64,000 bases of DNA from Candidatus Saccharimonadota bacterium (GTDB lineage: Bacteria > Patescibacteriota > Saccharimonadia > Saccharimonadales > Saccharimonadaceae): the NCBI GenBank assembly GCA_009777315.1, contig WRMD01000003.1:1-64000 (forward strand), written 5' to 3'. Below the pieces are notes generated by a model, which was not told the origin of the DNA, searched no databases, and saw nothing but the letters and a program-made list of their open reading frames with translations. The translations under genes and the position numbers were made by a program. This document shows positions 2,386-51,592 of the stretch, one piece after another (within the stretch, counting starts at the first letter, position 1; each line of letters begins with the position of its first letter).

Positions 2386-3269
2386 CTCCCCACCCCCTAC
2401 GGGTAGACACAGCGGAGGGAGTGGCCATAGCGCTTTATCTCGTACGCAATATTAGGAGTCCAGCCAGCACGGATAAGTTCAGCATTTACGTCTGCAAAGG
2501 CGACCATTGCGCCAGATAGTAGTGAAGACCCCCACCACAGTGCTCGAGCTTGGTCATATAGCCCCTGCGGCGCACGATACAACCCCATCGAGACAGTGGC
2601 GAAGATTCTTATGCTTGCAAGTTGGTGGTTTAGTGGTTGTAAGATTCTTTTTGCAGTTTTCCGCCCCTGAGCCCTCAGAGACAAAACGCTACAAGGGTTA
2701 TGCTTGTACTGATTTTGTGGATTTGATAAGATTCTCTAGGGTTTTGGGCTGATTTGTGGAGTGCTAGGAGTGTTATCCACCCTCCTGCAATGGACTTCAT
2801 AAATCTAATCCTAGTTGAACTTTAAGAAGTCCAGTGTTTCTGCTAGTCGAGGGCTTACTCTCGATAGAAAGGAGGTGCGTATGCTTAAACTACGTTTGTT
2901 GTTTGGCCTACTAGAAGTAACCGTAGATTTTCGTAAGAAATAGTTAAGTGTACCTTGCGGTACACTTAACACCCGTAGAGGTTTACTAGGTAAGCCTCGT
3001 TAGTATCATTCTATAACAAGCCAACACATAAAAGCAAGCTTTTTGACTGATCAAAAGCGCGCCTTCGCCACTGTCTCAGGAGCATTCTTCTACCCGGCTA
3101 TTGGTGCATATTGGCAGTCTTCACATGGGCATTGGTGGACCTCTTCACTAGTAGGGGCAATAACTCCGTCCTATATATTCTTGAGCAATACAGCTATCCA
3201 ACCCAACACCAGCGACGATAGAAATCTTGGCTATTCCCTCCGCTGTGTCTACCCGTAGGGGGTGGGGAG
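2386..3269. mobile_element. Cassette element E1: inverted pair of FISUMP C-terminal cassettes with ~450 bp central cargo
   Basis: Left TIR CTCCCCACCCCCTACGGGTAGACACAGCGGAGGGAG, minus cassette to GAGACAGTGGCGAAG (~2604); plus cassette from GCCTTCGCCACTGTCTC (~3060) to right TIR. Confidence 0.8.
2881..2943 (+). CDS. 20-aa micro-ORF MLKLRLLFGLLEVTVDFRKK
   Basis: Strong SD AAAGGAGGTGCGT directly upstream of ATG; immediately followed by hairpin GTTAAGTGTACC-TTGC-GGTACACTTAAC (2943-2970). Confidence 0.4.
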   Translation: MLKLRLLFGLLEVTVDFRKK

Positions 3270-8969: not shown

Positions 8970-9433
8970 CTCCCCACTCCCTACGGGTAGACACAGCGGA
9001 GGGAGTTACCAGCCCGTTTATGATTGCTATCTGTACCAGGATTATTACTTGCGTTATTTGTGTTTGTGCGCGCCGCATTTGAGGCCGAGGCCAACGACGA
9101 AGCATGCTGAAACAACGCTGATGACTGGCTGCCTAGGCCAGGATTTAATGGACTAAAGTTACCTATGGAGACAGTGGCGAAGGGAAGTTGTATAAAACTT
9201 CGACCCTCTCTGGAGGCCACCGAATCCTCCTTCGCCACTGTCTCGGCAGGTAGCTTTCAGTCAGGCGTTCGTAATCAAGCCAGCCTCATGCAATCGTGGA
9301 CTGGCTCACCTACATCATCTAGTAGTGCCAACCGTATAAATATATCCTCCGAGAATGCACAGCCATCTCAAGGTGCCAACAACAAAGCCTATGGTAACTC
9401 CCTTCGCTGTGTCTATCCGTAGGGGGTGGGGAG
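8970..9433. mobile_element. Cassette element E2 (inverted pair)
   Basis: TIRs at both ends; cassettes FATVSIGNFSPLNPGLG...NSLRCVYP (minus) and FATVSAGSFQSGVRNQ...NSLRCVYP (plus). Confidence 0.85.
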
Positions 9434-9630: not shown

Positions 9631-10085
9631 CTCCCCACCCCCTACGGGTAGACACAGCGGAGGGCATAACCAGCGTCTCTAGGTGGATTGCTACCGAATC
9701 CTGAACGAATTCTAGTAGCGTTCACATCTGAAAGATTAGTTCCAGCTCCCGAAAGGACAGACGATACCCACCAAGTTGCCGTTGTGGAATAACTAATGTT
9801 TGTGCTAATTACATGAATGACACCAGCCGTGACAGTGGCGAAGGAGGGGAGACTTTTATAAAGTCCCAACTTCCCTTCGCCACTGTCTCAGGTGGAGACT
9901 TTCTGTTTACTACCACTCTTGGGTTGCGATCTCAGTCTGAAGGCCCACACTGGTATTCATCGTCTATTGCTTCGGTAGCTAATGCTGCCAACATCTGGAT
10001 GTCAGGCATTGGCTCTTTTCCAGATGCGATTGCAAACAAGTACCGTGGTTACTCCCTCCGCTGTGTCTACCCGTAGGGGGTGGGG
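9631..10085. mobile_element. Cassette element E3 (inverted pair)
   Basis: TIRs; cassettes FATVTAGVIHVIST...YALRCVYP (minus) and FATVSGGDFLFTTT...YSLRCVYP (plus); centre contains GACTTTTATAAAGTC. Confidence 0.85.
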
Positions 10086-10251
10086 CATAAGGCACTAGCT
10101 TTAAAACAAACGCGCCGAGGCTGCCTTCGGCAGCTTGTTTAAAGCTTTACATTATTGTCCGAGCACGATAGACAAGTACAAAACGGACACCGACACGCCA
10201 CAAGGCGCGATAATCTTGGACATCGAGCGAATCAGCGAAATAAAATAAGTT

Positions 10252-16315: not shown

Positions 16316-16816
16316 CTCCCCACCCCCTACGGGTAGACACAGCGGAGGGAGAAGCCGTAGGACTTACCAACATTACTGTGCGCGCCCGGTGGATACAGAG
16401 TGTTGGGGGCTACGCTCATGTGAGGTGGATTTGTCGCTGAATCCATGGAGATGACCCACCATTGTGCAGCTGCAGACTGAGCATATAAGCCTCTATTCGG
16501 AACGAAGTACCCATTCGAGACAGTGGCGAAGGAGGGCGATGAGAACTTCAAGTTGCCCCAAAATAAGCATAATCTCTTGACTTTTCATCCCGCTTGTGCT
16601 ATACTGTACAATAGAGATAATTATGTCCCAAGCCTCCTACCCCTGTTACAACAGGGGTCGTTCTTATTCTCTTCGCCACCACCTCATCGAGTAATAGTTC
16701 GTCAAAAAGGTCAGGATTCACTCCTGCCTTTTTGACTTTACCTAAAAGGGAAGAGGAAGAGAAACCGCTAGGTGTCTCTTAGCTGGACGCTGTGTCTACC
16801 CGTAGGGGGTGGGGAG
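16316..16816. mobile_element. Cassette element E4 (minus cassette intact, plus cassette degraded) with internal promoter/hairpin
   Basis: TIRs at both ends; FATVSNGYFVPNRG...FSLRCVYP (minus); TTGACT-17-TATACT promoter and ACCCCTGTTACAACAGGGGT hairpin in centre; right half out of frame. Confidence 0.8.
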
Positions 16817-26269: not shown

Positions 26270-26430
26270 GACCCCACTATACACCCAATTTTCTAGAGAA
26301 AAAGCATAACCCTTCTGATTTTTCACCCCTGTTTGCTCAGATCAGAAAAAGTGAAAAAAGAATATCTTATCAACAGAGGTGACAAGAAATGTCCACCAAA
26401 AAGTTATATTATACGGCTCATGCTTATTTT

Positions 26431-26884
26431 CCCCACCCCCTACGGGTAGACACAGCGGAGGGAGAGACCAAGATAGCTTGCTGTAGCGTCACGTGTACCG
26501 GGGTTTATGGTGTTGTGGAGCAGGCGTGTATATGAAGCAACCGTTCCAGAGGCGACAGAGGGAACGAACCAGTGAGCTCGTTCGTTTAGGTACTCTAGGC
26601 CATTACCAGGACGTAGCATCCCGTCCGTGACAGTGGCGAAGGAAAGCCAGGACTTTATAAAGTCGCTCCTCCTTCGCCACTGTCACGTCGGCATGGCTTC
26701 AGCCCTTTTCTGGCGTCCGTGAGCAGTCCATGCAATCATATTGGTGGGATGCGTCACTAAGCACAGCCGACAACGCTTCCCTCACGAATGTGTTTAACGC
26801 GCAATCTGGACCGGGCCAACACGCCAACGGCCAAAGACATTTTGCCTTCTCCCTCCGCTGTGTCTACCCGTAGGGGGTGGGGAG
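26431..26884. mobile_element. Cassette element E5 (inverted pair)
   Basis: TIRs; minus cassette FATVTDGMLRPGNGLEYLNERAHWF...SLRCVYP and plus cassette FATVTSAWLQPFSGVREQSMQSYWWD...SLRCVYP (neither has an ATG-initiated ORF of track size); centre GACTTTATAAAGTC. Confidence 0.83.
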
Positions 26885-31062: not shown

Positions 31063-32184
31063 TTATTTAGCGCTGGCGATGGCGGAGAGGAGAGAGTCTT
31101 CGGCTTTTTTGCTGGTCTTGGGCTTGGCCTTTTTCTCGAGGATTTCGATGTCGAGGTCGTAACCGGTGAGCTGAGAGGCGAGGCGGACGTTTTGGCCTTG
31201 GCGGCCGATAGCGATAGCTTGCTGGTCTTCGGTGGTGTAGACTTTGGCGCGTTTGGCTTTTTCGTCGAGGTCGATTTTGCTGATTTCGGCGGGCTGGAGA
31301 GCGGCGCGGATGAACTCAGCTACGTTGTCGCTCCAGGCGATGATGTCGATCTTCTCGCGGTCGCCGATTTCGTTTTGGACGGCTTGGACGCGGACGCCAC
31401 GACCGCCGACGAATGATCCGACCGGGTCAACGCCGGGGACTTCGCTGGCGACAGCGATTTTGGTGCGACGGCCGGCTTCGCGGGCGATGCCCTTGACGCT
31501 GACACTGCCGCTGGAGAGTTCGGGGACTTCTTGGCGGAAGAGGAGGTCGATGAATTCTTTGGCGCCACGGGAAACGATCATATCGACGCCACGCTCGTCG
31601 CGTTCGATGCCTTTGAGGTAAACTTTGAGTTGTTCGCCGACGCGGTGCCTTTCGCCCTCGATTTGTTCGGAGATGGGCATGATGGCGCTACCGCTGCCGC
31701 CGATGTCGATGCGGATGATTTTGGGCTCGACACGAGTGACGCGGCCGTTGATGATAGTGCCGATGGAATCTTCAAACATAGCCAGGACAGCTTCGCGCTC
31801 GGCTTCGCGGAGGGCTTGCATGAGAACTTGTTTGGCAGTTTGGCTGGCGATACGGCCGAGGGTTGAGACTTCGTGGCTTTCTTCGACGATGTCGCCGATA
31901 GCGGCGTCCTTTTTGAGAGCTTTGGCTTCGGCGAGAGGGATTTCTTTGGCCGGGATGTAGCCGACTTCGTCCTCGATGACTTCACGCATGACGTAGACGG
32001 TGGCGGTGCCGCTGTTGACATCCAGTATGGAGCGGACGTTTTGTTCGCGCTCGCCGTGTTCACGGCGCCAAGCGGCGGCGATGGCGGTTTCGATAGCCGC
32101 GAGCACAATCTCTTCGCTGAGGTTCTTCTCGTCAGCGAGGATTTTGACCATAGGGATCATTTGTTTTAAATCTAGTGTTTCCAT
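31063..32184 (-). CDS. nusA: Transcription termination/antitermination factor NusA
   Basis: GRGVRVQAVQNEIGDREKIDIIAW KH domain, S1-like region, IGRQGQNVRLASQLTGYDLDI. Confidence 0.94.
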   Translation of the reverse strand: METLDLKQMIPMVKILADEKNLSEEIVLAAIETAIAAAWRREHGEREQNVRSILDVNSGTATVYVMREVIEDEVGYIPAKEIPLAEAKALKKDAAIGDIVEESHEVSTLGRIASQTAKQVLMQALREAEREAVLAMFEDSIGTIINGRVTRVEPKIIRIDIGGSGSAIMPISEQIEGERHRVGEQLKVYLKGIERDERGVDMIVSRGAKEFIDLLFRQEVPELSSGSVSVKGIAREAGRRTKIAVASEVPGVDPVGSFVGGRGVRVQAVQNEIGDREKIDIIAWSDNVAEFIRAALQPAEISKIDLDEKAKRAKVYTTEDQQAIAIGRQGQNVRLASQLTGYDLDIEILEKKAKPKTSKKAEDSLLSAIASAK

Positions 32185-32337
32185 TTTGTTCCTTTCGTGT
32201 AATGATTATACCTATACATTAATCCTGAAAAATCCGCCCTTTCGGCCGGAATTGTCAGGTGTAATACATCTATTATAGCGCAGGCTTGAAGCAAAAGCAA
32301 GTTGTGCTTGGTGCATTAGCTGTGATAAGATAAGAAT

Positions 32338-32787
32338 ATGACGGTTTTTGTGGTGCTGGCTATCATAGTAGCGATTATGGTTTTTGCGCACCGGCATTCA
32401 GGACCGGCGATGCTGGCAGTGATTGCCGGTGGGTATGTACATCAGACTTTTGGTGATTGGCTGACGGAGACGGTGATGAAAAATGTCGATGGGCTGGCGC
32501 AAGATATCGTGTCGAGCGTGATCTTCTTGATACTGGTGGCGGGCGTGCCTTTGCTGCTTTATTTTAAGTCGAAATCGGGACGGGTGGGGCTGATACATCT
32601 GGTGCAGATTGTGATATTTGCCGCGGTGCTGGTGCTTTTGGCGGCGCCGGTAGCCGGGCAGTGGGTGACATTTGATGCGTTGACGCAGGAGATCGTGGGG
32701 TGGGTGAATGCAAACATCCAATTCGTGGTAATAGCGGGTGTTGTGAGCGCCTACTACGATATTTTCTTTGCGACAGCGGCGGACTAA
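32338..32787 (+). CDS. Membrane protein
   Basis: 149 aa with four TM helices. Confidence 0.55.
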   Translation: MTVFVVLAIIVAIMVFAHRHSGPAMLAVIAGGYVHQTFGDWLTETVMKNVDGLAQDIVSSVIFLILVAGVPLLLYFKSKSGRVGLIHLVQIVIFAAVLVLLAAPVAGQWVTFDALTQEIVGWVNANIQFVVIAGVVSAYYDIFFATAAD

Positions 32788-35283: not shown

Positions 35284-35820
35284 CTCCCCACCCCCTACGG
35301 GTAGACACAGCGGAGGGAGAAGCCCTCCCTCCTAGATGAAGCATCTGTGCCAAAAAAGATTTGGGATGCACTGCTACCACGTAAGCTCGTAAAGGCCGAC
35401 TGAATCCCCGAGAGCACTGAAGAGGTGTACCAAAAGCTACGATCGTTTCGAGTATATTGCCCCTGGGATGGGAAGAAATAATCGCTCGAGACAGTGGCGA
35501 AGGAGGATTTCTATTGACTTTTCATTTCGCTTGTGCTATACTGTAGAGTAGAGAGAACTATGTTCTAATCCTCCCACCCCTGTTATAACAGGGGTCGTTC
35601 TTATTTCCTTCGCCACTGTTTCGGGCGGGTGGTTTCATCCTCCGGGAGGGGCATCGAGTATGTCTATGTTGTTGGTGTTTCATGCTTCTTCTTTGAATGT
35701 GCCTCCTGCTCCGTCCTCCATATGGTTGCGTACAATTACGGAAGTTCTGCCTGGCACACATGAAGGCATAACATCAAGTAGCTATCTACTCCGCTGTGTC
35801 TACCCGTAGGGGGTGGGGAG
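35284..35820. mobile_element. Cassette element E6 (inverted pair) with internal promoter/hairpin
   Basis: TIRs; FATVSSDYFFPSQG...FSLRCVYP (minus) and FATVSGGWFHPPGG...YLLRCVYP (plus); TTGACT-17-TATACT promoter plus ACCCCTGTTATAACAGGGGT hairpin in centre. Confidence 0.83.
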
Positions 35821-38657: not shown

Positions 38658-39144
38658 CTCCCCACCCCCTACGGGTAGACACAGCGGAGGGAGAGACCAT
38701 ACCGTTTAAAGTCGCTGCCGCCAGGGCCGCTAGACGTTAAGCTAGTAATTATGGAGCCTCCCGATATGTTTGATTGGAGAGAAGAGTTCCACTGATCGAT
38801 GCGTGTGGATTGGTAGGTTGAACCACTATCAGCCGCGGGACCGAAGCGACCCGACGAGACAGTGGCGAAGGAAAGCCGGAACTTTATAAAGCCAGCGATA
38901 TAACAGAGGTAGGAAACTTTATAAAGTTTTCCTTCGCCACTGTCGTTATGGGAATCTTTGATACAACTAGTGGCGGGCTAAGAGACCAGTCCCTGTTTGT
39001 ATGGTGGAGCAGTTCGTCCGTAGTATCCGCCATACATGCTGGTGGGGTGAATATGATGTCAACATCTGCCATAAACATCAGCTCGACACAGCAGAAACAA
39101 CATGGTTTTACCTTCCGCTGTGTCTACCCGTAGGGGGTGGGGAG
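38658..39144. mobile_element. Cassette element E7 (inverted pair)
   Basis: TIRs; FATVSSGRFGPAADSGS...LSLRCVYP (minus) and FATVVMGIFDTTSGG...FTFRCVYP (plus); centre has two CTTTATAAAG palindromes. Confidence 0.83.
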
Positions 39145-42564: not shown

Positions 42565-42782
42565 TCCTTCGCCACTGTCGGATCGGCTATCTTGCATAAT
42601 CAAGGCCTCACAGGGCTTCATGTAATGTCAGAGCGATCAATATGGTGGACGTCATCTAATGTATCAACTATATGGCCCGGCTATTCGTGGATCAGTCCTA
42701 CATTGACAGACCTGGCACGTTCCGATCATGGCAAATTCAGTGGTCTAGCCCTCCGCTGTGTCTACCCGTAGGGGGTGGGGAG
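42565..42782 (+). mobile_element. Half cassette element E8 (single plus cassette)
   Basis: CCTTCGCCACTGTCGG ... FATVGSAILHNQGLTG...LALRCVYP ... right TIR; structured RNA copy 2 directly upstream. Confidence 0.8.
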
Positions 42783-48049: not shown

Positions 48050-49944
48050 ATGAAACAGCTTAACTCTAATAATACCTCCCCCCACCCAACTGGGGGGGGG
48101 GTCCTTCTAAGCTTGGTTTAGCTAGATACTCTACTAATAACAAACACTCCACCAAACTCCCATCATACAAACATACTACCAACTCCCCCAAAGGAACAAT
48201 CCACCAGTATAACAAGAAGTATAAGCATAATACCTCCATACCTACACTCTCCTCCAACCTCCTCACCAAATCCCTCCAGCCTACTAAGATACTAACTGGC
48301 CTAGTAATACTATCAGTCTTTACCACCCTAGCGGCTGGCATCGCCAGCCGCTTAGTCCCCTCATACGCGAGCCCTGCAGAACTCGGAGTAGCTTTTGGTG
48401 CCACGGTCGACTTCAGCCTAACTATGACCGTAGGGGACGCCTTTAGTACCTACAACTGCCCAGCCTCCGGCGGAGCCGGAGGCAGCCTGAACCTAGGCAG
48501 TGTCGCACCTAACGGCAATCTCTACTATGCCTGCGTTAACGTCAACGTCACTACCGACAGCACCCTAGGCTATACACTCTCGATGCAGGGAGACAGCACT
48601 GGACTATACAATAGTGCAGCTAGTGCTACGATAGCTAGAATGCCAGGCTCTATAGCATCTCCTTCTAGTACAGTCCTAGCCCAGAACAACACCTGGGGCT
48701 TCTGTATACCTGGTGATACGATGCAGGGTATAGCTAATGGCTTTAACACAGGCCCTACAGCCTGTGGTGGTACTAATGGTAACACAGCTAGTGCGATAGG
48801 CTTTGCCGGAGTACCTGTAGGTAAGACCCTAATCAAGTCCGTAGAGACCCTACCTACTACCGACACCCAGCAGAACACTCCAGTTAGGTTTGGGGTTCGT
48901 CCTACTGGAGCTACTGCAGCTGGTACCTACTCCTCCACCATTACCTTTACTGCTAGCATCAATGAAGCCCCTATAGTCTTTATGCAGACCTTCACTACTG
49001 CAGAGTGTAACATGCTTGCAGTAGGAGACATCATCACCCTACCTGATGCTAGAGACAATACACAGTACCGTATCAAAAAGATGCCCGACAACAAGTGCTG
49101 GATGATGGATAATCTGGCTTATACTGGTGGTGGGGATAATACCTATGGGGATGTGGTGCCGGCCTTCAGTGGCAGCACTCCCACTACATCCAGTACTGGT
49201 GTCCTGATTGAACACCCAGGCGGTGGTGACTGGCCAGTAGGTGGCAGTAACGCTAACCGACAAACTGTTCGTCAGTTCGCTAACAACAGCAGTGCCGGCT
49301 TTAATAACACGTCCTGTCTACCAGATACTCCAACCGGCACTGGTGTTATGCAATCTATCTGTGGCGACCAGGTGCTCTACAACTTCTGCGCAGCTATGGG
49401 GCTAGACGATTCTACCACTCCTACTTGTAGTGCAGTTTCTAACACAACCACCGGTACCAACATGGCATCTACCGGTGTGGTCGGTGCAACAGGAAGCGGC
49501 ATAGGTGGCGAGAGCCTTGGTTCCGGCGGCACTTCCATTTGCCCTGCTGGCTGGAGGATACCTGTAGGACGGGTCGGCGCCAGCAATGACAGCAACAATG
49601 AATGGGCTATACTCAGTGGAGCATTCAATACTGGCGGGACAAACTTAGCCCCTAATACTTCAACTGATGCTGGCTTCATGGGTTACTGGCAGCCGGCTGG
49701 TACATCAGTAGGTTCGGGTGGTATCCAGCTTGGTGGCGGGGCCTTTGGTACAGTATCAGCCGGCAGCGTCACTAGTGCGGCGGGCGATCTCAACGGTCAG
49801 TCCTCGTACGCGTACTGGTGGACATCCTCCTTAAGCTCTGCTACCAACGCTTGGGACACGGCCGTGAACAGCACGAACGTCAACCCCGGCACGAACGGCA
49901 ACAATAAGGCCGCCGGATTCACTGTCCGATGTGTTTATCCTTAG
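48050..49944 (+). CDS. Secreted/surface protein with C-terminal FISUMP (Fibrobacter succinogenes major paralogous-like) domain; interrupted at a G10 tract
   Basis: SD GAGGTG and ATG at 48050 (MKQLNSNNTSPHPTGGG), then G10 at 48092-48101; main frame opens from 48073 and has no ATG/GTG/TTG upstream of the signal/TM segment KILTGLVILSVFTTLAAGIASRLVPSYA; C-term ...GGAFGTVSAGSV...YWWTSSLSSATNAW...GFTVRCVYP. Confidence 0.8.
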
Positions 49945-50060: not shown

Positions 50061-50271
50061 CCTTCGCCACTGTCACATCGGATGCGTTCAATGCTTCCTT
50101 TGGTCTATGGGGTCAATCTTTAGTTTCTACCTGGTACACTTCTTCGCTCTTGTCGGCAACACGAACAACGTTCGCACATTTAGCACCTACATTCATGAGA
50201 GCCGGAACTCATGATGATGTCAGAGCTTTTGGCGAATCCCTCCGCTGTGTCTACCCGTAGGGGGTGGGGAG
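50061..50271 (+). mobile_element. Half cassette element E9 (single plus cassette) directly downstream of the FISUMP gene
   Basis: CCTTCGCCACTGTCACATCG...FATVTSDAFNASFGLWGQSLVSTWYTSSLLSATRTTF...ESLRCVYP + TIR; preceded by three TTTATAAAG palindromes. Confidence 0.8.
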
Positions 50272-50330: not shown

Positions 50331-51395
50331 GTGAGCCAGTCTGACAACTTCGGAGAATACAAAAAACTTGGTGAGCCGGATAAACTAAGGAAGGTTGAGA
50401 ACTGGCGGGTCGGTATTGGTCTGCAACAAATTGACGGGCTGACGCCATCTAAGCAACTGATTGAGCTTGCGAAAGACAACATTGAGGGCAAGATTTCGAT
50501 TGATGAAGCAACAGAACGAATCGCCCAGTATTACAAGAAGAACCCGGCTCAAACTCCAATAGAGAGAGGCGAGCAGGAAGCCGATGAAGTTTCTTCTCGC
50601 ATCACTAGGCTGCTGAGTAGCAATACTTTCGCTCTTAGTCCGGCCGAACTGGTGTCAATTCACAAATACCTGTTCAATGGTGTGCTGAGCGACGAAATCG
50701 CCGGCAAAATTCGCGACTACGACATTAGCAAGGACGAGCCCATATTGAACGGCTATACTGTGAGTTACGGTCGAGCAGATAGTATCCAAGAAACGCTGGA
50801 TTATGACTTCAGTCGGGAGAAAGAGTTTAGTTTTAAGGGTTTGACGCAGCAGGAGAAAGTCGAACATATCATGATGTTTATGTCTGGCGTTTGGCAGATT
50901 CATCCGTTTGCTGAAGGGAATACTCGTACTATAGCCGTGTTTGTTATTAAGTACCTTCGAACGTTGGGGTTCAAGGCGAATAACGAGTTGTTTGATGAAA
51001 ACTCTGTTTACTTCCGCAATGCTCTTGTCCGGGCGAACTACAATAATCTTGAAAAGGGTGTATATGAGAATACGGAGTATTTACGTATGTTCTTCGGTAA
51101 CTTGTTGCTAGGCGAGAAGAATAGGTTGCGTAACGGAGACATGCAAATTGACTCAGAAACTACCCAGAAAACTACCCAGAAAACTACCCAGAAAGTCTTG
51201 GATGTTTTAGTGAATAATCCATCAGCTACTCGCAAAGAAATGGCGGAGATTATAGGACTAACTGAAGATGGGGTGAAGTGGAATCTTAACAAGCTACGTG
51301 AAGAAGGTAAGATTAGGCGCATCGGCCCGGATAATGGCGGGCACTGGGAAGTTGTGGAAGCGGGCGGCGCTTTTCTCCCCACCCCCTACGGGTAG
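50331..51395 (+). CDS. Fic-domain protein with C-terminal winged helix; C-terminus encoded by an element TIR
   Basis: HPFAEGNTRTIAVFVIKYLR Fic motif; TTQKTTQKTTQK linker; last residues FLPTPYG read through TIR of E10. Confidence 0.88.
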   Translation: MSQSDNFGEYKKLGEPDKLRKVENWRVGIGLQQIDGLTPSKQLIELAKDNIEGKISIDEATERIAQYYKKNPAQTPIERGEQEADEVSSRITRLLSSNTFALSPAELVSIHKYLFNGVLSDEIAGKIRDYDISKDEPILNGYTVSYGRADSIQETLDYDFSREKEFSFKGLTQQEKVEHIMMFMSGVWQIHPFAEGNTRTIAVFVIKYLRTLGFKANNELFDENSVYFRNALVRANYNNLEKGVYENTEYLRMFFGNLLLGEKNRLRNGDMQIDSETTQKTTQKTTQKVLDVLVNNPSATRKEMAEIIGLTEDGVKWNLNKLREEGKIRRIGPDNGGHWEVVEAGGAFLPTPYG

Positions 51396-51592
51396 ACACA
51401 GCGGAGGGAAAAGCCTGCAGGTTTGCCGACGTTGGCTGCGCTATGGGCTATGAAGGTTTCGGTTAAATATAGATAGGGTGCTGTGGCGGTCGATAGCAGA
51501 GATGAGTTCCACCAATGTGCTTCGTTGCTGGGTTGAGACAGAGTGCTGGTAGTAAACCAGCCGGTCGAGACAGTGGCGAAGGCCCCATGCTC
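51375..51592 (-). mobile_element. Half cassette element E10 (single minus cassette)
   Basis: TIR then minus cassette FATVSTGWFTTSTLSQPSNEAHWWNSSLLSTATAPYLYLTETF...FSLRCVYP; ends at GAGACAGTGGCGAAGG. Confidence 0.8.

Follow-up and report, generated by a model that had tools for sequence, protein, structure and literature searches.

What is the short inverted element at positions 8970 to 9433: a mobile unit bounded by terminal inverted repeats (TIRs), or coding material that serves another locus? We addressed this question in the window, that is, the whole 64,000-nucleotide stretch of Saccharibacterium DNA of which the element is part, and in the rest of the same genome. The assembly is single and metagenome-type (834 kb in 30 contigs, 87% complete); the window is its contig C3, and positions on other contigs are given with their contig number. 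A preliminary description had read the element as a TIR, a minus-strand cassette, a central box, a spacer, an inverted copy of the box, a plus-strand cassette and a second TIR, and all of these parts are present. The box of the left cassette, GACAGTGGCGAAGG, is followed by a 45-bp spacer and then by the right box, CCTTCGCCACTGTC (Table 1).

Coding cassettes in the window

Read from its box, CCTTCGCCACTGTC, each half of the element is an open frame that starts with FATV, continues through ~55 variable residues and closes with LRCVYP*. The stop codon of each cassette falls within the outward 34-bp "TIR", which comprises the coding 3' end (...LRCVYP*), the stop and ~15 bp beyond it. The true unit is one box-to-TIR cassette of ~205-220 bp, and the palindromic element is two such units back to back. 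The inverted 34-bp repeat of the preliminary description does exist in pairs, but it is really a cassette 3' end that forms a terminal inverted repeat only because two cassettes sit back to back; genome-wide, 61 of 99 elements are single. The two halves had been called non-complementary, which holds for the DNA, yet both encode homologous protein segments. Reading the halves in frame also bears out that the coding C-termini point outward, a polarity opposite to that of a shufflon; with this polarity, inversion in place is unable to switch a fused C-terminus. A distant recombination partner had accordingly been called for, and a full-length gene that ends in a cassette does lie elsewhere in the genome, at C16:4404-7124.

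Across the window, the box has 20 matches at ≤2 mismatches, against a chance expectation of 0.36. The window as a whole comprises five head-to-head pairs and six cassettes on their own, besides two non-coding elements that are truncated (Table 1). Six complete elements had been counted before; five stand as complete head-to-head pairs, and the sixth is probably 16316-16816, where a cassette lies opposite a truncated non-coding half. The window also contains a full-length FISUMP-type gene that has no box/TIR cassette, its C-terminal region (AFGTVSAG...TVRCVYP) being of the variable-region type of a diversity-generating retroelement (DGR).

Small repeats accompany the cassettes. The spacers between paired boxes (e.g., 9831-9887, 26629-26684 and 38858-38944) are made up of repeated small palindromes, AACTTTATAAAGTT and ACCCCTGTTGTAACAGGGGT, which recur in many elements. 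Directly outside the TIR of several unrelated cassettes lies a repeated module, TAAG(G/A)CACTAGCTTTAAAAC(A/C)A(A/G)CGCGCCG, found downstream of C3:10087, C2:42132 (-), C7:49933 (-) and C27:6386 (-).

Table 1. Cassettes and related features in the window
Feature	Position	Strand
Silent cassette, left half of the reported element (FATVSIGNFSP...SLRCVYP*)	8970-9183	-
Silent cassette, right half of the reported element (FATVSAGSFQS...SLRCVYP*)	9229-9433	+
14-bp box, left cassette start, frozen DNA	9170-9183	-
14-bp box, right cassette	9229-9242	+
34-bp frozen cassette end ("TIR"), LRCVYP* + stop + ~15 bp, left cassette	8970-9003	-
34-bp frozen cassette end ("TIR"), right cassette	9400-9433	+
Head-to-head silent pair	9631-10087	9631-9844 -, 9874-10087 +
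Head-to-head silent pair	26429-26884	26429-26642 -, 26671-26884 +
Head-to-head silent pair	35284-35820	35284-35503 -, 35607-35820 +
Head-to-head silent pair	38658-39144	38658-38871 -, 38931-39144 +
Single silent cassette	2386-2605	-
Single silent cassette	3062-3269	+
Single silent cassette; then truncated non-coding half with TIR at about 16746-16816	16316-16532	-
Single silent cassette	42566-42782	+
Single silent cassette, 117 bp downstream of the full-length FISUMP gene	50061-50271	+
Single silent cassette	51375-51582	-
Truncated non-coding element beginning with the box; same ends, no coding cassette	1770-1825	-
Full-length FISUMP-type gene, open frame	48073-49944	+

The genome-wide repertoire and its full-length gene

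Genome-wide, the box has 151 matches at ≤1 mismatch, against 1 for a reversed control. At ~214 bp apiece, the 137 box-to-TIR units that we delineated occupy ~3.5% of the assembly and are dispersed across all large contigs. Every unit codes for the final ~65 residues of a FISUMP-like domain (FATV...LRCVYP*). Unit length is divisible by three in 133/137, and interiors are open in the coding frame in 131/137, whereas the two remaining forward frames give 11 and 1 and shuffled sequence gives ~12; six of the 137 are non-coding, and four further units carry single lesions. The LRCVYP* ending is intact in 126 units, all of which differ from one another. They make up 99 elements, of which 38 are head-to-head pairs and 61 are single, the latter including the expression site described below; at C13:10563-11473 a pair is followed by two more units in tandem. 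Placement is intergenic, with ORFs of at least 200 aa covering 4% of unit length versus 75% at random places. Apart from the expression-site copy, the units are promoterless and all 136 lack a conserved start; an in-frame ATG, GTG or TTG lies upstream of the box in 57/136, an SD-like motif precedes an in-frame start in 3/136, and the sequences upstream of the cassettes are mutually unrelated.

The sole unit with a long frame running into its cassette lies outside the window, at C16:4404-7124 (-). It encodes a protein of 906 aa with an N-terminal signal/anchor segment (VLPILVLSPFVVLAAFFALNPASA, judged by eye), a long middle and a C-terminal Fib_succ_major/FISUMP-related domain; the last 68 residues are the cassette. 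The constant region ends in ...TFWRSSFATV, and another gene follows ~30 bp beyond the stop. Box and 34-bp end are common to the silent units and this gene. The protein scores 16.3 bits against PF09603 (FISUMP / Fib_succ_major), for which the cut-off is 33.9, and close homologues in the same genome, which align at 37-43% over the domain, pass that cut-off. Protein relatives in named genomes are mostly from 'Candidatus Saccharibacteria'. No silent twin identical to the expressed cassette was found in the 87%-complete assembly. The C-type lectin fold is typical of DGR targets. An AlphaFold model of the expressed domain itself was poor (pLDDT 39.5), and a good predicted model of the domain from its window homologue (pLDDT 79, pTM 0.85) matched no PDB fold at E ≤ 0.001, solved C-type lectin proteins included; a sequence-profile search of the PDB gave no match.

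A non-coding element of ~228 bp with the same box and a TIR-like end occurs in about ten copies that are >94% identical (C1:21827-22055, C9:29571, C13:18505, C4:21116 and the ends of C11, C19, C22, C27, C28 and C29), and fragments of it lie in the window at 1770-1825 and 16746-16816. It may represent a blank cassette or else an independent mobile unit of small size. Folding did not support a stable hairpin from the TIR (z about -0.5). Elsewhere, the box had one match, in one other of 394 family genomes, and the TIR core had none in viral contigs.

A profile search of the family and order returned further genomes with many short matching frames. The genome G300, from a Saccharibacterium of another genus, shows the same architecture with DNA ends unrelated to those of the window genome, the box being GTGCGCAGCGGG (VRSG) and the tail TTTCCCCCTCCGCTGCCTTAGTACTGTATTAGGTATGTAG. 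The tail occurs 72 times at ≤3 mismatches, against 0 in the control, with many copies in outward-facing pairs. Among G300 units with a box, 67/68 are in frame and all 67 are open; their interiors are near saturation and their ends frozen. Pairwise identity is bimodal: nine pairs reach 90-100%, a single pair falls between 60 and 85%, and the remainder lie near 45%. The nine near-identical pairs sit at different loci, their flanks diverging directly outside box and tail. A full-length expression gene was not found in the G300 assembly. Ten further G300 units combine the same box with a different frozen tail (CGCGG..GGTGCCGATCTTT) and are Asn-rich, with 8-15 AAY codons compared with a mean of 4.2 (loci L190:9619, L233, L243, L195, L230, L241, L189, L244, L242 and L218); they may represent templates or a class of more recent origin. 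G296 (L171-L180), G295 (L181-L188) and G133 (L146-L149), genus g2, likewise contain numerous short frames for FISUMP C-termini, some of which lie at the ends of contigs, and these are likely further silent repertoires with their own boundaries.

Copying, selection and the link to a DGR

Contigs of the assembly break inside cassettes because some cassettes occur twice. Eight contig-end cassettes match a second locus at 99-100% over 107-127 bp, a set of duplicates that may include strain variation. For seven of the eight, exact probes recovered both contexts, in which the flanks diverge at the unit end or within a few bp of it; a cassette common to C24, C26 and C29 shows flank divergence at both ends. 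Five silent units carry, upstream of the box, 12-26 bp of the coding sequence of the expression gene (CACAGCCAACACCTTCTGGCGCTCCT and shorter forms), and this nested series suggests that sequence was copied from the expression site or from its ancestor.

When 129 cassettes are aligned by codon, the box (FATV) and the end (LRCVYP*) show almost no variation, synonymous sites included, while interior third positions are saturated (33% pairwise identity) and the interior structural residues G, S, W, L and K are conserved. Mean pairwise DNA identity is 40%, and because its spread around this value is near binomial, the cassettes are almost without tree structure. Nor did we detect segmental mosaics among them, shared runs being no higher than under permutation. 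Between the members of one moderately old silent pair we counted 20 synonymous and 4 non-synonymous changes (pS 0.38, pN 0.03), and between those of a younger pair 5 and 4, respectively. The synonymous excess, the frozen ends and the conserved structural residues together indicate that the silent copies are maintained as coding sequence. Such upkeep requires at least occasional expression.

The genome also contains a complete-looking DGR at C6:30144-32705, consisting of a variable-region gene end, a 256-aa ORF, a reverse transcriptase (RT) gene (31346-32467, a 373-aa frame) and, on the other strand, a template rich in Asn (32469-32705). Between the template and two variable regions, substitutions fall at A in 12/13 and 22/22 positions. 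Variable regions of the C6-DGR type occur in full-length FISUMP-type genes on C6, C10 and C17, and the full-length gene of the window resembles these genes. The DGR unit begins with F-G-T-V and ends just past the stop, and the cassette borders coincide with these limits. At the columns where the template encodes Asn, pyrimidines make up 74% of 4-fold third bases in the cassettes versus 46% elsewhere (Fisher p = 2e-46, in a test that treats codons as independent). Randomisation of AAY codons to NNY is expected to leave such a trace, although fast turnover of amino acids could add to it; the G300 contrast, at columns chosen by variability, is weaker (65% versus 56%). The shared borders and the NNY bias suggest that the cassettes probably descend from DGR variable regions.

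Differences from the template lie almost all at adenines in the C6 targets but not in the cassettes, differences between young cassette copies are not at A, and no template for the cassette family was found. We rejected the possibility that all cassettes were written from one DGR template, given their 40% pairwise DNA identity and the variation of constant columns at third positions. A second RT gene, at C8:16183-17133 (L052), has a 316-aa frame with an IGNLTSQ motif and lies ~190 bp from a silent cassette; it was rejected as the cassette engine, there being no template beside it. One can tentatively picture a DGR-derived system in Saccharibacteria, an idea to which we give somewhat less than even weight, in which a genome-wide library of >100 cassettes replaced mutagenic retrohoming by whole exchange at two short frozen sites. 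This picture also includes unrelated DNA interiors, an engine that is an RT or a dedicated recombinase, and boundary sequences wholly different between genera.

Candidate mechanisms and known systems

We consider it probable that the elements constitute a dispersed silent-cassette repertoire for one expression site, akin to vls, pilS and MgPar, and not a transposon. In favour are the single full-length copy among many open frames, the intergenic placement, the selection visible in silent copies, the frozen ends, the duplicates whose flanks diverge at those ends, the stretches of expression-gene sequence beside five units, and an independent second case in another genus, G300. Each box-to-TIR segment would be an alternative ~65-aa C-terminal module of one secreted or anchored FISUMP-like surface protein, with C16:4404-7124 as the expression site. 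Whole cassettes would be copied or exchanged into the C16 gene and between silent loci, recombination being confined to the shared ends, i.e., the 14-bp box (FATV) and the 34-bp end (LRCVYP*), and in this way the cell would alter a portion of a surface protein. Transfer into the C16 gene, its direction and rate, and a role in contact with host bacteria are inferred. Candidate engines are RecA/RuvAB-type conversion, a dedicated recombinase and RT-mediated copying; RecA-, RuvB- and RecJ-like genes are present in the genome, as judged by motif. The left border of 12-14 bp is short for RecA-dependent recombination and counts against this explanation. It is not prohibitive, because the vls system of Lyme Borrelia (vlsE), which is RecA-independent, switches with short repeat borders that measure 17 bp in strain B31 (PMC2779866, PMC11499132). 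Also against the silent-cassette explanation are the ~100 loci whose seeding it does not account for, the lack of a silent twin of the expressed cassette, the missing full-length gene in G300 and the absence of the mosaics typical of vls and pilE.

Two of the alternatives concern the engine. A DGR-type RT could copy silent-cassette transcripts and home the copies to the expression site, the 34-bp end acting like a DGR 3' homing signal and the box needing short homology only. This is a version of the silent-cassette explanation with another engine; the coincidence of cassette borders with the C6 variable-region unit, the two RT genes (one without a recognised template), the NNY bias at template-Asn columns and the short border on one side are all consistent with it, but young copies differ at non-A positions, cassette transcription is without support and the C8 RT has no known tie to the cassettes, and we regard it as unlikely, if worth keeping in view. 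Exchange at box and TIR by a site-specific tyrosine recombinase, integron- or Xer-like, appears more doubtful still. The genome does encode two such enzymes (C2 and C4), the ends are short and frozen, exchange would take place between units without interior homology, and a cassette-free copy of the outer 17 bp of the TIR (1 mismatch allowed) lies at C4:39474-39490, just beyond the recombinase gene C4:39528-40475. However, it is not clear that box and TIR are one site, the C2 enzyme resembles an ordinary Xer, neither gene travels with the cassettes, and the unrelated G300 ends mean that enzyme specificity would have to differ.

The preliminary description had proposed a non-autonomous TIR-to-TIR mobile unit, which as a transposon family (MITE or IS-derived) would have 34-bp TIRs, coding ends and a transposase elsewhere. 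Sharp unit ends within unrelated flanks would agree with this, as would the ~ten copies of the ~228-bp non-coding element, in which the ends and not the coding content seem to be copied. Yet target-site duplications (TSDs) of at least 5 bp are not above chance (pairs, 1 versus 0.5 expected; singles, 2 versus 1.4), most elements have one TIR only, and a search of the 87%-complete assembly for tyrosine recombinases, serine recombinases and Y1 transposases found the two tyrosine recombinases but none of the other two kinds. Together with strong frame conservation, purifying selection and the one unit that forms the 3' end of a large gene, this makes a transposon very unlikely. Still less probable is that the units are non-functional debris, DGR target fragments scattered by chance recombination and now decaying: homology to DGR variable regions, missing promoters and conserved starts, and the ten non-coding or damaged units might suggest as much, but the 131 open frames, the 20:4 synonymous excess in a silent pair, the frozen ends and precise recent copying in two genera do not. 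Finally, we find it hardly credible that the cassettes are separate small genes, each for a secreted or binding peptide of ~65 aa; open frames and the 57 units with some in-frame start upstream of the box would allow it, whereas the rarity of SD-like motifs, the unrelated upstream sequences and a cassette that leaves no room for a signal sequence speak against it.

The silent-cassette explanation has several partial precedents. Like vls, the system comprises promoterless in-frame cassettes for one expressed surface protein with short repeat borders; vls, however, has 13-24 cassettes that are ~90% identical, lie in a contiguous array and generate segmental mosaics (PMC11499132), whereas the ~135 cassettes here are dispersed, share ~40% DNA identity and show no mosaics. 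In Mycoplasma genitalium, nine truncated MgPar donor copies of mgpBC are dispersed through a very small genome (PMC2169797). Both systems thus have dispersed truncated donors in a very small genome and one expression site each, but the nine MgPar donors are long and exchange segments through extended homology, in contrast to ~135 whole 65-aa modules with 14 + 34 bp in common. Neisseria pilS loci hold silent 3' portions of a single surface gene, in which the coding ends are conserved, as is a 3' segment past the stop. The cassettes resemble pilE/pilS in these respects and differ in being single dispersed units, where pilS has few silent loci with tandem copies, long shared blocks and RecA dependence. 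DGRs are matched in the C-terminal FISUMP-type unit and in the borders of the template and targets of this genome, although here diversity is stored in many genomic copies and a DGR writes it from one template. Shufflons likewise have alternative C-terminal segments, conserved joints and an inverted arrangement, but the coding ends here face outward and the units are dispersed, none adjoining the gene, and in-place inversion would not switch it. Unlike integron cassettes, the units are dispersed, and neither tyrosine recombinase lies in an array. MITEs and REP/BIMEs are similarly dispersed, intergenic and often in inverted pairs; the cassettes differ in being coding, under purifying selection and tied to one gene, with no TSD and no Y1 (REP-type) transposase.

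Literature searches, with subscription literature outside their reach, found nothing that joins Saccharibacteria with gene conversion, CPR with silent cassettes, or FISUMP with Saccharibacteria; publications pairing Saccharibacteria with antigenic variation appear to deal with other subjects. Novelty is provisional because subscription sources were excluded. If the cassettes feed the expression site, this would be, as far as the searched literature shows, the first silent-cassette switching in Patescibacteria/CPR and, to our knowledge, the largest and most divergent bacterial silent-cassette repertoire. Frozen ends beside saturated interiors pose a mechanistic problem, that of exchange with 12-14 bp in common on one side. 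Retroelement hypermutation and silent-cassette exchange usually occur apart; here, both strategies meet on the same domain in one cell. Saccharibacteria dwell on the surfaces of other bacteria and their genomes are very small, yet the present one devotes ~3.5% of its DNA to alternative versions of a single surface domain that are not expressed. If the cassettes do supply the expression site, host recognition by these epibionts, or their escape from defences, would become directly testable.
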